From IMG/VR virus record IMGVR_UViG_3300025088_000059, positions 1 to 22,228 of that record: DNA of 22,228 nucleotides. The stretch is one strand, 5' to 3'. The notes under the pieces are model-generated. The model was not told the DNA's origin, did no database searches, and worked only from the letters and a program-made list of their open reading frames with translations. The stretch comes from a virus. Positions within the stretch are counted from its first letter, which is position 1; each line of letters starts with the position of its first letter. The translations under genes were made by a program, and so were the position numbers. Below, one piece after another: positions 5,357-14,844 of the stretch.

Positions 5357-7300
5357 TTAACCCCCGGCCAGCGCAAAGCGGCGGATATCCTCGGCGGCGT
5401 CTCGGCTGCCTGAATAAATCGCCCCAATCTGGATTTGGGTTCCCCTGGGGCCGATTGAGCCCGCCAAGGCCCCTTGGTCTGGGGTTTTATAACTGTCTCG
5501 CCAAGGCCCTATGGGTGCTTGGGCTTGGGTGGGGTTTTGGCCTTGGGGGCTACTGGTAATGGCGGCAAGGGCCTTGGGGATGTTTTGTTCGAAGGCCTCG
5601 GTTAAGGCGGCCCCACCAGGGATCACCGAAAAGGCGGCTTTAAAAATCCCCAAGAGCATTTTAAGAGCGCCCGAGGCAAAGGCCTTTATGCCTTCTAAGC
5701 TAAACCCCTTGCCCATGGCGTCCGACATTTCCCCCCAGGCGTCGATCACTTGGGTGATGGCTTCAGCCACGCCCTTGATCGGTTTTAAAATCATCACGTC
5801 CATAGTCACCGCAACCACCTTGCCAGCCACCTTAAACGCGGCGGCCCACCCGTCGGTTTCGCCCGTTAACTTTTTGAGGTTTTCCAGCGCCCAAGACAGG
5901 CCCGGTTTGATTGCAACCCAGAGCGCCCCAAACGCTTCTTTTAGGCCCAAAAGCCCCGGCTTAATGGCCTCACTAAAACCACTCCAGGCCGCCGAAAGCG
6001 CCCCGGTTTTTTGTTCGAGTTGGTAAAGCCCAAAGCCAACCAGGGCCACCCCACCCAAGACCAGCCCGACCGGCCCGGTTAAAACGGTCAAAGCCGCCGA
6101 TAAGGCCCCAACCCCAATCGCGGCGACACTAAAAGCGGCCCCGGAAAGGGCAATCACCTTGGTAAGGTTGGGGTAAGTGTGCCCGAATTGTTCGGCCTTG
6201 GCCGCAAAACGCTCCACCAGTTTAATCAAGGGCAAAAGGGCGGGGGCCATTACGTCTAAAGCCTTGGACCATACGTTATCCACTGCCGACAAGGCTTGGC
6301 CCCATTTCCACGAAAACCGCCCGCCTAGCTGGTGGGCTACCTGGTCAATCGCCCCGGCGATCTTCGGGCGGTCCTTCATTCCGTCCAAAACACTTAACGC
6401 GGTTTCGGTTCCTAGATCTTCAAACTTGGATCCAAAAATATCTTTGCCAAAGCCAAAGGCCTGGGCTTGGGGGAGTGTCGCCAGTTTGGCGGCCACCTGG
6501 GAAAAGGCCTTGGCCGCATCAATCCCGCCCGCCTTTATTTGGTCGGGTAGGTCCGCCAGCCCGATTTGTTGCAAAGCCAATATGGTGGGCGCATCCCCCG
6601 CCGTTAACCTTAGACGCCCCTCTTTGAACATATCTCCAACAAAATCGATACTCCAAGAATCTTTCAGCCCCCGGCCAATTACCCCTATGGTCTGGGCAAA
6701 ACTTAACCCCGCCTCTTTAAACTGGACCGAGTATTCCAAAACCGTGTCCGCCAATTCGCCCCTAAGGTCTCCCCCTTTGCCTGCAAGATAGGCGTAAGCG
6801 TCGCCCACTTCTTTGACCGAAGTCCCAAAGCGGCGCATCAATTCTACTTGGGCCTTGAGAGCGTCGGGCGCTTCCACGCTTTTAAAGCGGGCGGCAAGCT
6901 GGCCGGTTTGAATGGTTAAGGCCTCAAGATCGGCACCTAAGAGACCCGAGGCTTCGCGGGTTAGTTGTAGCTGCTCGGCGGCGGCTTTGGCATCTTTGAG
7001 GCCCAAGGCTTGGTTGACTTGGTAAATCTGGTTTTTTAGGGCGGCCATGCCTTGGGTTGTGGTGCCGGTCGCGTCTTGGAGGCTTTCAAAGCTGGCTGCT
7101 TGCTCGGCCACCTTGTCGGTCAAGACTTTAAGGGCGAAGGCTCCCCCGCCAATCATGGCCCCCGACTTAGCCAAACTCCCCAAGTCGGCCTTGATCGAGT
7201 TGGAAAGCTTACCTATTTTGGTTTTGACTTGGAATAACCCCTGGTCAAATTTGGTTAAGTTCCAGCCTAGTTTTACTTGAAGCTTTCCGGTCTCGGCCAT
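5357..7300 (-). CDS. Tail tape measure protein
   Basis: A 647-aa protein and the longest minus-strand gene, located after tube and frameshifted chaperone genes as in P2 (T) and lambda (H). The N-terminal ~130 residues are helical, with typical tape-measure opening features (FDQGLFQVKTKIGKLSNSIK, later AAEQLQLTREASGLLGADLE). Around residues 385-430 there is a long hydrophobic Gly/Ala/Val region (VIALSGAAFSVAAIGVGALS and onward) that could span a membrane. The ATG at 7300 overlaps the TAA of the frameshift extension (TAATG) and has GGGAGG four bases upstream. At about 0.15 nm per residue the tail would be near 100 nm (inference). No peptidase or lysozyme domain is apparent. Confidence 0.88.
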   Translation of the reverse strand: MAETGKLQVKLGWNLTKFDQGLFQVKTKIGKLSNSIKADLGSLAKSGAMIGGGAFALKVLTDKVAEQAASFESLQDATGTTTQGMAALKNQIYQVNQALGLKDAKAAAEQLQLTREASGLLGADLEALTIQTGQLAARFKSVEAPDALKAQVELMRRFGTSVKEVGDAYAYLAGKGGDLRGELADTVLEYSVQFKEAGLSFAQTIGVIGRGLKDSWSIDFVGDMFKEGRLRLTAGDAPTILALQQIGLADLPDQIKAGGIDAAKAFSQVAAKLATLPQAQAFGFGKDIFGSKFEDLGTETALSVLDGMKDRPKIAGAIDQVAHQLGGRFSWKWGQALSAVDNVWSKALDVMAPALLPLIKLVERFAAKAEQFGHTYPNLTKVIALSGAAFSVAAIGVGALSAALTVLTGPVGLVLGGVALVGFGLYQLEQKTGALSAAWSGFSEAIKPGLLGLKEAFGALWVAIKPGLSWALENLKKLTGETDGWAAAFKVAGKVVAVTMDVMILKPIKGVAEAITQVIDAWGEMSDAMGKGFSLEGIKAFASGALKMLLGIFKAAFSVIPGGAALTEAFEQNIPKALAAITSSPQGQNPTQAQAPIGPWRDSYKTPDQGALAGSIGPRGTQIQIGAIYSGSRDAAEDIRRFALAGG

Positions 7301-7475
7301 TATCCCTCCCCGTGGAGTCCCCTAAAAAATCGGTTTTCGATCCAGAGCGCCCGCCCTGCTGCCAAAATCAACTCTTGATCATCCAGGGCCCAAACTTCCT
7401 CGGGGCTGGCTTGACGCCAGTAAAGCGCCAAGGCAATCAACTGGTCTTGATCGCTTACGTTTGGGCCTTGGGCTT
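7300..7475 (-). CDS. E'-type -1 frameshift extension of the tail assembly chaperone
   Basis: This reading frame has no start codon of its own. If ribosomes slip back one base at GGGAAAG (7473-7479), they continue through 57 sense codons to a TAA at 7300-7302 that overlaps the tape-measure ATG. I translated the whole segment and found no earlier stop. The product segment includes LIALALYWRQASPEEVWALD, then DQELILAAGRALWIENRFFR. That resembles the short GpE/E' pattern (hydrophobic start, W, then an LxxxELxxxxxxA helix) of phage tail chaperone extensions. The full frameshift product would be about 178 aa (121 + 57). Known homologues: P2 E+E', lambda G-T. Confidence 0.8.
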
Positions 7476-7835
7476 TCCCAAGGTTAGCCCTGTCTCGCTA
7501 AAGGTTTCGGCCAAAGACAGAAAAATATCTAAAGCCGCGCCTGGGTTGTCGGGATCGTTGACGATTTGGCCAAACATAGCGCCGCTACCTTGGCCCAAGG
7601 CCCCTTGCAAAAAATCGCTAGCGGCTAACTCTGGTTTTTTTTCAACCCCTTGCATAATCCGCCCAACTAAAAGCCTGCCGAGGCTAAGGGCTTGTCGGTC
7701 GAACGCAAATTCCAACTCCCCTTTAGTGCCGTTGTCTAAGCTAAACGGGAGGCTGATTTTCCTGTTAAACCCTCGGGCCAGCTTTTGCCCCTGGCTTTCT
7801 GGTTTTGTTGGATTTACTTCTTTCTTTTTGTTCAT
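7455..7835 (-). CDS. Tail assembly chaperone, gpE-like
   Basis: A 126-aa protein between tube and tape-measure genes, the conserved place of the tail assembly chaperone (P2 E, lambda G). The start at 7835 has GGGGG five bases upstream. The N-terminus is basic (MNKKKEVNPTKPESQGQKLAR), followed by RKISLPFSLDNGTKGELEFAFDR, a strand-rich core, and a helical C-terminus ending LTLGKPKAQT. The last codons contain the slippery site used to make a longer form. Chaperones of this type coat the tape measure before tube polymerisation and are absent from the virion. Assignment rests on position plus the frameshift signal. Confidence 0.78.
   Translation of the reverse strand: MNKKKEVNPTKPESQGQKLARGFNRKISLPFSLDNGTKGELEFAFDRQALSLGRLLVGRIMQGVEKKPELAASDFLQGALGQGSGAMFGQIVNDPDNPGAALDIFLSLAETFSETGLTLGKPKAQT
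7466..7483 (-). promoter_or_regulatory. Perfect 7-bp hairpin centred on the slippery site
   Basis: On the minus strand the sequence CCTTGGGAAAGCCCAAGG can fold into a 7-bp perfect stem (CCTTGGG/CCCAAGG) with an AAAG loop. The loop and upper stem are the slippery heptamer itself. A ribosome on the slip site would have opened it, so it is not a standard downstream stimulator. It may control approach or spacing of ribosomes, or be coincidental to the Lys-Pro-Lys coding sequence. Confidence 0.45.
7473..7479 (-). other. Programmed -1 ribosomal frameshift slippery site G_GGA_AAG
   Basis: In the E reading frame the codons are TTG GGA AAG, so the heptamer falls in the canonical X_XXY_YYZ register. 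This is the same heptamer used by lambda G-T. It lies six codons before the zero-frame TAA at 7455-7457. The -1 frame is open from here to the tape-measure start. Confidence 0.8.
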
Positions 7836-7857: not shown

Positions 7858-8298
7858 TTAAAGCAAGCTGGCTTGGTTGCGTTTTGCAAAGACAGGAACC
7901 CCGTTGATAAAGACTTGGCTTAGGACCTGAAAATCGAAGTTTAGCCAGTCGTCGGAGCCCTCAATCAGGTTTCCCGAAAAATCCTTGGGCAAATGGACCA
8001 AGACGCTTTCGCACAAGATCACAATCGGCAAACCGCCGTTGTCTTCGTTTAAGTTGATTAACAAAAACTCTAAGGGCCTTGCCTCTTGCCAAGAGCCCCC
8101 CACTATCGCCAGAGTCATTAGGGCAAAAAGAGCTTTGGCCCTTAGCGTGAGTTTTCCAGAGGCGTCGCCGTCTTTGAGGATTTGAACCCCGTTTTGGGTG
8201 TCGAATAAATCGGGGAAATTAAGGGTATAGTCTTTAGCCAAAACCGGCCCCAGGGGGGTTATAATTTCGACGTTGAAGCCTTGGTAATGCTGTTTCAT
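7858..8298 (-). CDS. Major tail tube protein (gpFII position, DUF2597-like)
   Basis: A 146-aa protein immediately after the sheath gene, the invariant place of the contractile-tail tube protein. It contains a DGDASGKLTLRAKAL segment (about residues 42-57), AIVGGSWQEARPLEF and, near the end, FQVLSQVFINGVPVFAK. The D.sG.leLd...... and final F.fINGVPvl elements are what I recall for the DUF2597 tube family of VHML-like phages. The start at 8298 has only a weak ribosome site (GCAGG about eight bases away), surprising for an abundant protein, so coupling to sheath translation 28 bp upstream is possible. Confidence 0.75.
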   Translation of the reverse strand: MKQHYQGFNVEIITPLGPVLAKDYTLNFPDLFDTQNGVQILKDGDASGKLTLRAKALFALMTLAIVGGSWQEARPLEFLLINLNEDNGGLPIVILCESVLVHLPKDFSGNLIEGSDDWLNFDFQVLSQVFINGVPVFAKRNQASLL

Positions 8299-8326: not shown

Positions 8327-9604
8327 TTAGGTTGCCGGGGTTAGGGTCACCGATTCAGCCACCACCGAAACATGGTTGGGCCCTTCGGCGGCAATAGTGA
8401 GTTGACAAGCGGCCCCCACCCACTTCGCGGTCACCTCGGCTTTGGTTAGTTCCCCGGCGTTTTTCATCGCGCCAAATCCACCCGTGGCTAGGGCCGCGAT
8501 GGCCATAGCTCCCGCATCGGTGCGGGGAAATTTGTGGGCGTTGATCGCGGGAAAGGCCCGCAGGCGCACCTCGCGCAATACCTTGTCGGCGATCCGCGCC
8601 AAAGGCAGGGTTTTTTGATCATCCTGGGCCCCGTATAACATCGGGGATAGGTTGATATAAACGTTGGTGGGGTCTTCTGGATGTCGCTTTAAAACCACCG
8701 CCCGGCCTGCCGCCAAGCCTTTGATTACGGCGAGCTTGTTAAGCTGCCAATCTTCGTCAATCGAGACCCCCAAGAGGGCGTGGCGCTCCACGTTGCCCGG
8801 TTCTTCGGCCAAGGTCTCCACGTTGGCGGCCGCCCCCGCATAAGCGCCCAACCAACCATTTTGGGTGGTGGGGGCCACTAGGCTAATCCTCGGATAAGAA
8901 AAACTCCCAAACTCGGCCGAATAGGCCGCCAAATAGCTTTCGGGCTTTTCTTCTAGGCTGGCCCCGGCCGCGAAGGTTTCGGCGACAAAGGTGGCCGGGA
9001 TCACCAATTCGCCCGCGCTGGTGGTGGCGTCTAAGAGATAGGCCCCGTCGTAGTTCAGGGTGCCCAGCAAGATCACCGTGTCCCCGGCGGCCAAGGGGTG
9101 GCCTGGGGCAGGGATTCCCACCAATCCGCCCGTTTTATCCACGGCGGCCAGGGTGGCTAAGTTTAAGACCAAGGCTTTGCGGTATCGGCAAAGCGCCCGA
9201 ATTTCCACCTTTTGAGCCGCCAAGCTGGCTAGCTCGTTTTTAAGGTCCGTCAAAAAGGCGGCGTCCGCGTCTTTGTCCACCACCAGCATTTCCACCTCCC
9301 CCAACGCCCGAATCTCGGCGATCCGGCTAGGGAGGTTCGCCCCGTCCAAATGGGTGAATGGGCCCGAATTGATAATCAAGTTGGCCTTTGCCTTGGCGTT
9401 GAGCCGGTAGGCGGTCAGTTCCTGGGTCAACCGCGCATCCCCTAAAAAGAGGGCGCTTTCGTCGCTATTGCCGTCAAAGGTCTGGACCTTGGCTGCGTTG
9501 CCGTCTTCGACCAAATAACCCGATCGACCATAGAGGCCGGTGGGGGGCACCACTTGCCCCGAATTTTCGAGGCTGGCGGTAATTTCGCTCCAGTTGTCGC
9601 TCAT
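8327..9604 (-). CDS. Contractile tail sheath protein (gpFI position, DUF2586-like)
   Basis: A 425-aa protein starting MSDNWSEITASLENSG at 9604, with GGAG eight bases upstream; the longer reading to 9667 overlaps the preceding gene and is rejected. Its place before the tube gene is that of the sheath. The core resembles DUF2586-type sheaths: FLGDARLTQELTAYRLNAKA near the N-terminus, VSIDEDWQLNKLAVIKGLAA, then a C-terminal DKVLREVRLRAFPAI and strand pair that would form the sheath handshake. Residues about 159-219 are an inserted beta module that also occurs in the capsid protein here (see separate entry). Removing it joins RYRKALVLNL to YLAAYSAEFGSFSYPRISLV, a continuous sheath core. It contracts to drive the tube through the envelope. 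Confidence 0.8.
   Translation of the reverse strand: MSDNWSEITASLENSGQVVPPTGLYGRSGYLVEDGNAAKVQTFDGNSDESALFLGDARLTQELTAYRLNAKAKANLIINSGPFTHLDGANLPSRIAEIRALGEVEMLVVDKDADAAFLTDLKNELASLAAQKVEIRALCRYRKALVLNLATLAAVDKTGGLVGIPAPGHPLAAGDTVILLGTLNYDGAYLLDATTSAGELVIPATFVAETFAAGASLEEKPESYLAAYSAEFGSFSYPRISLVAPTTQNGWLGAYAGAAANVETLAEEPGNVERHALLGVSIDEDWQLNKLAVIKGLAAGRAVVLKRHPEDPTNVYINLSPMLYGAQDDQKTLPLARIADKVLREVRLRAFPAINAHKFPRTDAGAMAIAALATGGFGAMKNAGELTKAEVTAKWVGAACQLTIAAEGPNHVSVVAESVTLTPAT
8948..9130 (-). other. Inserted FCCH-like beta module within the sheath
   Basis: Sheath residues about 159-219. Key pattern: GG-x-V-x-IPxPGH, then AAGDTVIL, NYDGAYLL, a T-S-A spacing, ELVI, and FVAETFAA. It follows the HxxxxGDxVxIxGxxNYdGxyxv...tFxI..xFVAxetG scheme of small beta domains (often annotated as ubiquitin-activating E1 FCCH-like) found in phage surface proteins. 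The same pattern occurs in the capsid at 14005-14193. Confidence 0.7.
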
Positions 9605-13551: not shown

Positions 13552-14844
13552 CTAGGCTTGGTCTTCGTGCTTTCTGAGGAAATAGACGTTGTTTAAAATA
13601 ATACAGGCGTCCACGTCCTCGACCGCTTGACAAGCGGCGTAGTAGGTCCATTGGACCAACCCGCCTTCTTTGGGGTTGTCTTCGAACTTCACCCGGCGCG
13701 AGCCGTCTAGTTCGTAATACGACAGGTTTTTCCAAGCGGTGATCATCACTTGGCGGGCTTTCATCCCCATCACCCGGTTGGAAACCAGGCCGCCAAAGCT
13801 CGAAAGCATTTGGGCAATATAGGATTTATTGCTCACCAAGGGGTTGGACCCGTCGATCGTGGCCATCAATTTGGCCTCGGCCTCGGCGGCCACGTCCCTG
13901 GACAACATCACCTCTAAGTCCCCTTCAAAGGCGATATCCTCGGGCAGTAAATCGGCCATGGCGTCCGAAACCGCCTGGTCTAGGGTCTCGAAGTGCCCCA
14001 CCTGGGAGATCAAAACCGTTGCCCCGAAGGTTTCGACGGTATAGGCGGATTCGATCACCAAATTGTTGGCGTCGGTGCCCGCTTTTAATAAAAATTCGCC
14101 GTTGTAGTTGACGGAAAACCGAATCCGCACCATCCCGCCTGCGATAAAGCCGTGGCCAGGCAAGGGGATTTGGACCTCGTTAGGAACCCCACCTAGGTTC
14201 GCCACTACCGCGCCCGCGCCCGAAAGTTCGCGTTTAGGCCCGACGATAATCACCGAGCCGCCATCGCCCATATTGTCCAATACGTTGGCGGGCTTGCCAT
14301 AGGTGGCGTCGCGCATCAACTGCTCGAAACCTAGGTCCACCGCCTGCAACTTTGCCTCATCGGTGCCCTCGCCTTGGGGATTGGCCGCTTGGCTGGTGCC
14401 ACGCAGGGCGATGGCGGCCATTTCGTCGGACATTTTTTTGGCGTACCACTCCTTGATCATCCCGGCGAACACCTCTTGGCTACCGCCTGCGGCGCTAAAC
14501 CAGGTGTCTAGGAGCCCATAAGGGATCACATAGTCGAAATCCCGCTCTTTGACTTCGTAGCGGCTCACCGAATCGGCGATTTTTTCCTTTGGCGACCGGG
14601 TCCCCCGCCCATGGATGGTGCCGGTGATTTTGCCAAAAATCTTTTTGGCCGAGGGGTGCTTTACGATCACCCGGTTGATCCGGTCCAACAGCGGGTTGGC
14701 TTTGATCCGCTCGGAAACGATTTGTTCTTGGTCCCCGCGAGACAAAGAAAAAACCGCGCCCGGCTGGACTTGGTAGGCGAGGGCCTGGGCATCGGCCAAT
14801 TCCTTGATTGCCGCGTGGGCGGCGGGGCTTAATACATGCTGCAT
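13552..14844 (-). CDS. Major capsid protein, gpN family (with inserted beta module)
   Basis: A 430-aa capsid protein starting at 14844 behind AAGGAG. P2 gpN-like segments: PLLDRINRVIVKHPSAKKIFG (residues ~51-71; N has FL.rINv..V.e..G.kig), RDFDYVIPYGLLDTW (101-115), MSDEMAAIALRGTSQA.NP (138-156, the r..DfimiGfnGt...SN p segment), the ISDAMADLLPED helix, and the closing AWKNLSYYELDGSRRVKFEDN (N: lenLsiYyq.gs.Rr.i.dnP). P2 N has about 357 aa; the surplus of ~70 equals an inserted beta module at residues 218-280. Capsid assembles on the scaffold from the preceding gene. Confidence 0.9.
   Translation of the reverse strand: MQHVLSPAAHAAIKELADAQALAYQVQPGAVFSLSRGDQEQIVSERIKANPLLDRINRVIVKHPSAKKIFGKITGTIHGRGTRSPKEKIADSVSRYEVKERDFDYVIPYGLLDTWFSAAGGSQEVFAGMIKEWYAKKMSDEMAAIALRGTSQAANPQGEGTDEAKLQAVDLGFEQLMRDATYGKPANVLDNMGDGGSVIIVGPKRELSGAGAVVANLGGVPNEVQIPLPGHGFIAGGMVRIRFSVNYNGEFLLKAGTDANNLVIESAYTVETFGATVLISQVGHFETLDQAVSDAMADLLPEDIAFEGDLEVMLSRDVAAEAEAKLMATIDGSNPLVSNKSYIAQMLSSFGGLVSNRVMGMKARQVMITAWKNLSYYELDGSRRVKFEDNPKEGGLVQWTYYAACQAVEDVDACIILNNVYFLRKHEDQA
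14005..14193 (-). other. Inserted FCCH-like beta module within the capsid protein
   Basis: Capsid residues about 218-280. Key pattern: GGVPNEVQIPLPGHGFIAGG, then MVRIRF, VNYNGEFLL, a T-D-A spacing, NLVI and YTVETFGA. It matches the sheath module at 8948-9130 at roughly 27 of 58 aligned positions by eye. It interrupts the region that in P2 gpN lies between the LGWLQ-type helix and the helix before DLVVIVG, so it probably projects from the shell surface. Confidence 0.72.

Follow-up and report, generated by a model that had tools for sequence, protein, structure and literature searches.

Does the 126-codon open reading frame (ORF) that lies between the tail tube and tape-measure genes of this phage region end at its own stop codon, or do some ribosomes pass into the overlapping -1 frame, which runs to the start of the tape-measure gene? 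The sequence studied was the 22,228-base IMG/VR record IMGVR_UViG_3300025088_000059, referred to here as the window, in which the tail module is encoded on the minus strand. Judged from sequence comparison, the reading we favour, at a probability of about 0.92, is that the locus holds the tail-assembly chaperone gene pair of a prophage with a contractile tail, related to P2/HP1, and that a minority of ribosomes slip by -1 on the heptamer G_GGA_AAG.

Tail module and overlapping frame

The window matched contig MFNE01000053.1 (L092) of Candidatus Lambdaproteobacteria bacterium RIFOXYD2_FULL_50_16; the slip region was identical in that contig, which contains runs of N in other stretches. These matches identify the window, by sequence, as a prophage region of the uncultured bacterium RIFOXYD2_FULL_50_16 or of a very near relative. 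A tRNA-Arg (CCT) gene (L181:1501-1576), located approximately 300 bases to the left of window position 1 and outside the window, is a possible integration site; a repeat of at least 14 bases between this tRNA-Arg stretch and L092 was looked for and not found. The window terminase was P2-like, with approximately 32% identity to those of Peduoviridae. The genes on the minus strand were ordered sheath, tube, 126-codon ORF, 57-codon -1 extension and tape measure, which places the putative chaperone gene downstream of the major tail proteins and directly upstream of the tape-measure gene. The features of the module, all on the minus strand, were as follows.

8327-9604 (-): contractile tail sheath, DUF2586 (phrog_907, E=5e-17; PF10758, E=6e-18)
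7858-8298 (-): tail tube protein, 146 aa, assigned by position after the sheath and homology to the tube protein of the related module L135 (E=3e-17)
7455-7835 (-): zero-frame ORF of 126 aa, a putative tail-assembly chaperone by its place between tube and tape measure and by hhalign against the chaperones of relatives (P=1.3e-4)
7498-7500 (-): -1-frame TAG, near the position of the T_TTT_TTR slip site in relatives
7473-7479 (-): candidate slippery heptamer G_GGA_AAG, in exact register with the zero frame
7466-7483 (-): hairpin with a perfectly paired 7-bp stem, CCTTGGG-AAAG-CCCAAGG, carrying the heptamer at its tip (z=-3.3)
7303-7472 (-): -1 extension, 57 residues (AQGPNVSDQ...LHGEG), the first codon of which, GCC, also takes base 7473
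7305-7311 (-): GGGGAGG, a Shine-Dalgarno-like sequence for the tape-measure gene, within the extension
7300-7302 (-): -1-frame TAA, overlapping the tape-measure ATG (TAATG)
5357-7300 (-): tape-measure protein, 647 aa (phrog_1272, E=6e-23; PF10145, E=7e-15)

Two further observations were made in the window. A domain of approximately 60 residues was common to the sheath (8960-9127, -) and the major capsid protein (14014-14181, -); sheath residues 161-216 matched the window capsid gene at 43% identity, and the sheath also matched the capsid genes of L012 and L094, so that the same inserted module seems to be present in two different structural proteins. Between 19607 and 20205 (-), two adjacent small ORFs of 100 and 93 aa resembled, by eye, an antitoxin-toxin pair of the HigA-HigB type.

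The chaperone ORF is preceded by AAGGGGG. Around the heptamer its zero frame reads TTG GGA AAG CCC AAG GCC CAA ACG TAA, with five sense codons after G_GGA_AAG and the stop (7457-7455) as the sixth codon. The -1 frame was open from 7497 through the TAA at 7302-7300, the last A of which also opens the tape-measure ATG (7300); because of the -1-frame TAG at 7498-7500, a slip upstream of 7497 would not be useful. The original prediction had described GGGAAAG in this exact register six codons before the stop, and a -1 frame open for 57 codons with its TAA overlapping the tape-measure ATG, and both descriptions were confirmed. Its statement that the extension has no start codon was correct for ATG and GTG, neither of which occurs in the -1 frame, but not for TTG, of which there are several. 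As TTG codons of this frame lie downstream of the zero-frame stop, the extension could in principle be a separate small gene, reinitiated at an internal TTG after that stop; no obvious Shine-Dalgarno sequence was found ahead of these codons, however.

Approximately 15 hairpins like that at 7466-7483 are present in the window, and this one is therefore possibly due to chance. Stretches of 50-75 nt downstream of the heptamer were matched or surpassed in folding by about a third of all windows in the region, and one 60-nt choice by about a tenth. As this RNA structure is ordinary for the region, no 3′ stimulator is claimed.

Coding character of the extension and its nearest relatives

Synonymous resampling of the codons for the same protein placed an in-register X_XXY_YYZ heptamer (Y=A/T) within the final 14 codons in 6% of cases, and GGGAAAG in 2%. 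In the window genes, in-register heptamers of the X_XXY_YYZ class were found at 0.7% of codons and in-register GGGAAAG once in 5352 codons. A stop-free run of 52 codons in a non-coding frame had a probability of about 0.12. The heptamer alone, or the open -1 frame alone, is consequently weak evidence, each being only mildly unlikely, and to that extent these values suit a coincidence, in which 7455 is the end of the gene and nothing is translated from the 150 bases ahead of the tape-measure gene. Against this, the extension had the codon usage of the phage genes and was coding in character: it scored 0.18, compared with about 0.26 (SD 0.11) for real genes and -0.33 (SD 0.10) for wrong frames, 0.25% of 3165 wrong-frame windows scoring as high or higher and 23% of true-gene windows as low or lower. 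This gene-like codon usage, together with homology, is the strong evidence for the extension.

Sequence relatives of the window tail module were rare. Scans of viral contigs with single proteins (chaperone, extension, sheath and terminase) and with tape-measure and baseplate-J alignments found no relative. Three informative modules, L134, L135 and L136, came from a sheath search of the host's phylum. The nearest terminase relatives, L012 and L094, both stop before the chaperone and were uninformative, and three others were set aside, one (L093) as a 7.7-kb contig and two (L160 and L161) as they hold parts of a tail module only.

L134, L135 and L136 are the nearest relatives that keep the chaperone region. 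Each encodes a homologous sheath, gpD-, V- and J-like genes, the chaperone and the extension, and L135 also shares the tube and the tape measure, the latter being 36% identical to that of the window over the matched part. L136 sits in the same host genome as the window (contig C39). In all three, the chaperone position is occupied by an ORF with an in-register heptamer 13-14 codons before its stop, and the -1 extension ends close to the tape-measure ATG.

L134: slip site T_TTT_TTA; extension end +5 nt from the tape-measure ATG
L135: slip site T_TTT_TTC; extension end -4 nt from the tape-measure ATG
L136: slip site T_TTT_TTG; extension end +12 nt from the tape-measure ATG

The overlaps are longer in L134 and L136, and each holds one additional X_XXY_YYZ match; T_TTT_TTN is the likely slip site in both, because it is aligned across all three relatives. 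The chaperones of the three modules showed weak matches to phrog_1214 (E 0.004-0.035). That of L135 (12954-13604, -) is, at 216 residues, twice as long as that of the window and seems to have arisen by tandem duplication of the chaperone domain, with the slip site at the end of the second copy. In L136, the ORF after the chaperone and the next ORF are each present twice.

With a profile of the three relatives' extensions, the window -1 frame was the top hit among 549 six-frame peptides (E=3e-4), the runner-up having E=5.4; hhalign gave P=5e-5 for the extension. The zero-frame protein also came top of the six-frame peptides, at a weak HMMER E=0.22, and by these sequence scores is more diverged than the extension. 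Given the first rank in this profile, the codon usage and the same layout in 3/3 close relatives, a coincidence is most improbable. A sequencing or assembly indel that split one longer gene has as little to recommend it: the sequence is metagenomic, which would allow such an error, but the RIFOXYD2_FULL_50_16 assembly, which may derive from the same reads, has an identical sequence here, and the relatives are split at about the same place, each with a slip heptamer there.

The window chaperone and extension matched no Pfam or PHROG family. Its chaperone was modelled as a strand pair with helices (pLDDT 73) and the extension as a helical hairpin (pLDDT 84 in the best model, 61-69 in the other four). 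A structure search with the chaperone model returned no significant match (best E 0.07 viral and 0.23 PDB); several of the named viral matches were tail assembly chaperones and were treated as weak.

Slip sites in the wider lineage

The original prediction had proposed an alignment of related phages, and had named loss of the heptamer or stops in the -1 frame as evidence against frameshifting. The alignment was carried out: an in-register slip site and an open -1 frame were kept in 3/3 modules, with a different heptamer from that of the window. G_GGA_AAG is thus absent from relatives whose -1 frames are open, and heptamer loss alone is misleading, because relatives use T_TTT_TTA/C/G or A_AAA_AAN. 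What is conserved is some in-register slip site together with the extension, not the heptamer. The predicted frameshifting chaperone of the lambda G-T and P2 E-E′ kind passed this comparative test, as all three nearest modules have both a slip site and a homologous extension.

The relatives' slip codons (P-F-L) aligned with E-T-F in the window, where there is no heptamer and the -1 frame has the TAG at 7500-7498; the window G_GGA_AAG lies about 7-9 codons downstream of their slip position in this low-identity alignment. Somewhat better than an even chance may be given to a turnover in which a P2-type T_TTT_TTR site was lost and a lambda-type G_GGA_AAG arose approximately 7-9 codons downstream, the homologous extension being kept; the direction of the change is one we infer from few sequences and that same alignment. 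If so, signals of both classes would be functional in a single cell, since the T_TTT_TTG module of L136 is in the same host genome. This turnover is the interesting part of the case; frameshifting itself is a well-known phage trick, and it is the lineage that is new. Layout is also a better guide than the heptamer, as the nearest relatives keep the frameshift with another class of slip site.

The comparison was extended to 13 HP1-like modules, comprising phiO18P (L002), L007, L150, L162 and nine named phages; L003 was left out as a near-copy of phiO18P. In-register A_AAA_AAN was present in 12/13. The exception, L150 (genome G388), has an open -1 extension and no canonical in-register heptamer in its short overlap, and was not counted as slip-site support. 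In 11 of the 12 modules with the heptamer, the end of the extension fell between -4 and +30 nt relative to the tape-measure ATG; the extension of L162, which has A_AAA_AAG, stops 119 nt before the ATG. A separate profile of the 13 HP1-like extensions, sharing no member with the first, also ranked the window -1 frame first (E=0.02). In Pseudoalteromonas phage ACA1 the depositors annotate a projected P2-like programmed frameshift at this place, and this kind of frameshift is therefore already recognised in the HP1-like lineage.

In phiO18P the chaperone is Phage_TAC_10 (PF10963) and its -1 extension is DUF6890 (PF21830)/phrog_7050. DUF6890/phrog_7050 is listed as of unknown function, and Phage_TAC_10 has a chaperone name in Pfam only. 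The present comparison assigns DUF6890/phrog_7050 to the Phage_TAC_10 chaperone as its -1 extension, directly in phiO18P and by position in other HP1-like phages, where existing annotations often give it as a gene of its own or leave it out. A small ORF before the tape measure in L002, L195, L199 and L200 corresponds to the DUF6890 part. In phiO18P, SI7, F108 and BIBS67 the extension part is annotated as its own small gene, a hypothetical one in the last three, whereas HP2, C5a and ValB1MD-2 carry no gene annotation for it. The former annotations, like the internal TTG codons of the window, would suit a separately initiated gene. Separate initiation does not require the overlap with an in-register heptamer that recurs in the three close relatives and 12/13 HP1-like modules, however, and frameshifting has precedent in the family, which leaves a separate gene very unlikely. 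The locus thus very probably encodes a -1 frameshifting tail-assembly chaperone of the lambda/P2 kind, in a prophage of Candidatus Lambdaproteobacteria.

Host decoding and comparison with known systems

The tRNA genes of the host genome were typed for the best 30 of 41 and their neighbours; the few left untyped have Leu/Ser tRNA length. tRNA-Gly UCC, CCC and GCC were present, and tRNA-Lys(UUU) was the only tRNA-Lys detected; the absence of tRNA-Lys(CUU) is provisional, because the host genome is a draft. Slippage on G_GGA_AAG needs one tRNA-Lys(UUU) that decodes AAA as well as AAG, and the host tRNAs allow the slip.

Under the frameshift reading, most ribosomes would stop at 7455 and make the 126-residue chaperone, which would coat the tape-measure protein. 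In a minority, tRNA-Gly(UCC) would re-pair from GGA to GGG and tRNA-Lys(UUU) from AAG to AAA; these shifted ribosomes would read 57 more codons and produce a chaperone-extension fusion, with the predicted peptide ...TLGKAQGPNVSD... across the slip point. The helical tail of the fusion would bring tube subunits to a tape measure coated with chaperone, and the extension TAA, by overlapping the tape-measure ATG, would couple the genes. We infer the slippage itself and its rate, and assign the product roles by analogy with lambda G/GT and P2 E/E′. In lambda, coating of the tape measure falls to the short product, and the rare long one binds tube subunits as well and initiates their polymerisation; by analogy, both products here would be absent from virions (PMC5009743). 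In E. coli, ribosomes are highly prone to shift on G_GGA_AAG, which also serves as the slip site of virus HCTV-5 (PMC5009743); it is likewise the site in phage TP901-1, where it was mutated to prevent gpT production (PMC4493119).

The locus would add prophages of Candidatus Lambdaproteobacteria and its phylum to the range of conserved chaperone frameshifting, in proteins unrecognised by the model libraries searched. The main survey of the tail-chaperone frameshift is reportedly that of Xu et al. (2004).

The window differs from L134, L135 and L136 in its slip site, G_GGA_AAG in place of their T_TTT_TTA/C/G 13-14 codons before the stop. With the HP1-like Peduoviridae it shares the place upstream of the tape measure, the DUF2586 sheath module, a -1 slip at the chaperone end and an extension that runs to the tape-measure start and is detectably similar. 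Their slip site, in contrast, is A_AAA_AAN at or near the stop, the HP1-like phages examined have lysis genes between tube and chaperone, unlike the window, and neither window protein is recognised by the Pfam or PHROG models of the HP1-like proteins, the zero-frame protein having no Pfam match to Phage_TAC_10 and the extension, which ranked first (E=0.02) with the profile of HP1-like extensions, none to DUF6890.

The heptamer of P2 is T_TTT_TTG, the type carried by the close relative L136. The window resembles P2 E/E+E′ in its contractile tail, P2-like terminase and overall logic, and differs from it in the heptamer and in that no Pfam match was found for its products. The label "lambda-type" given originally holds for the heptamer and not for the tail module, which is P2/HP1-related and contractile (P2-like TerL, DUF2586 sheath). 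No Pfam match to a lambda-type chaperone (gpG) was obtained up to E=1; the identical heptamer and the gene order are all that the window has in common with lambda G/GT and TP901-1, whose tails are non-contractile whereas that of the window is contractile.
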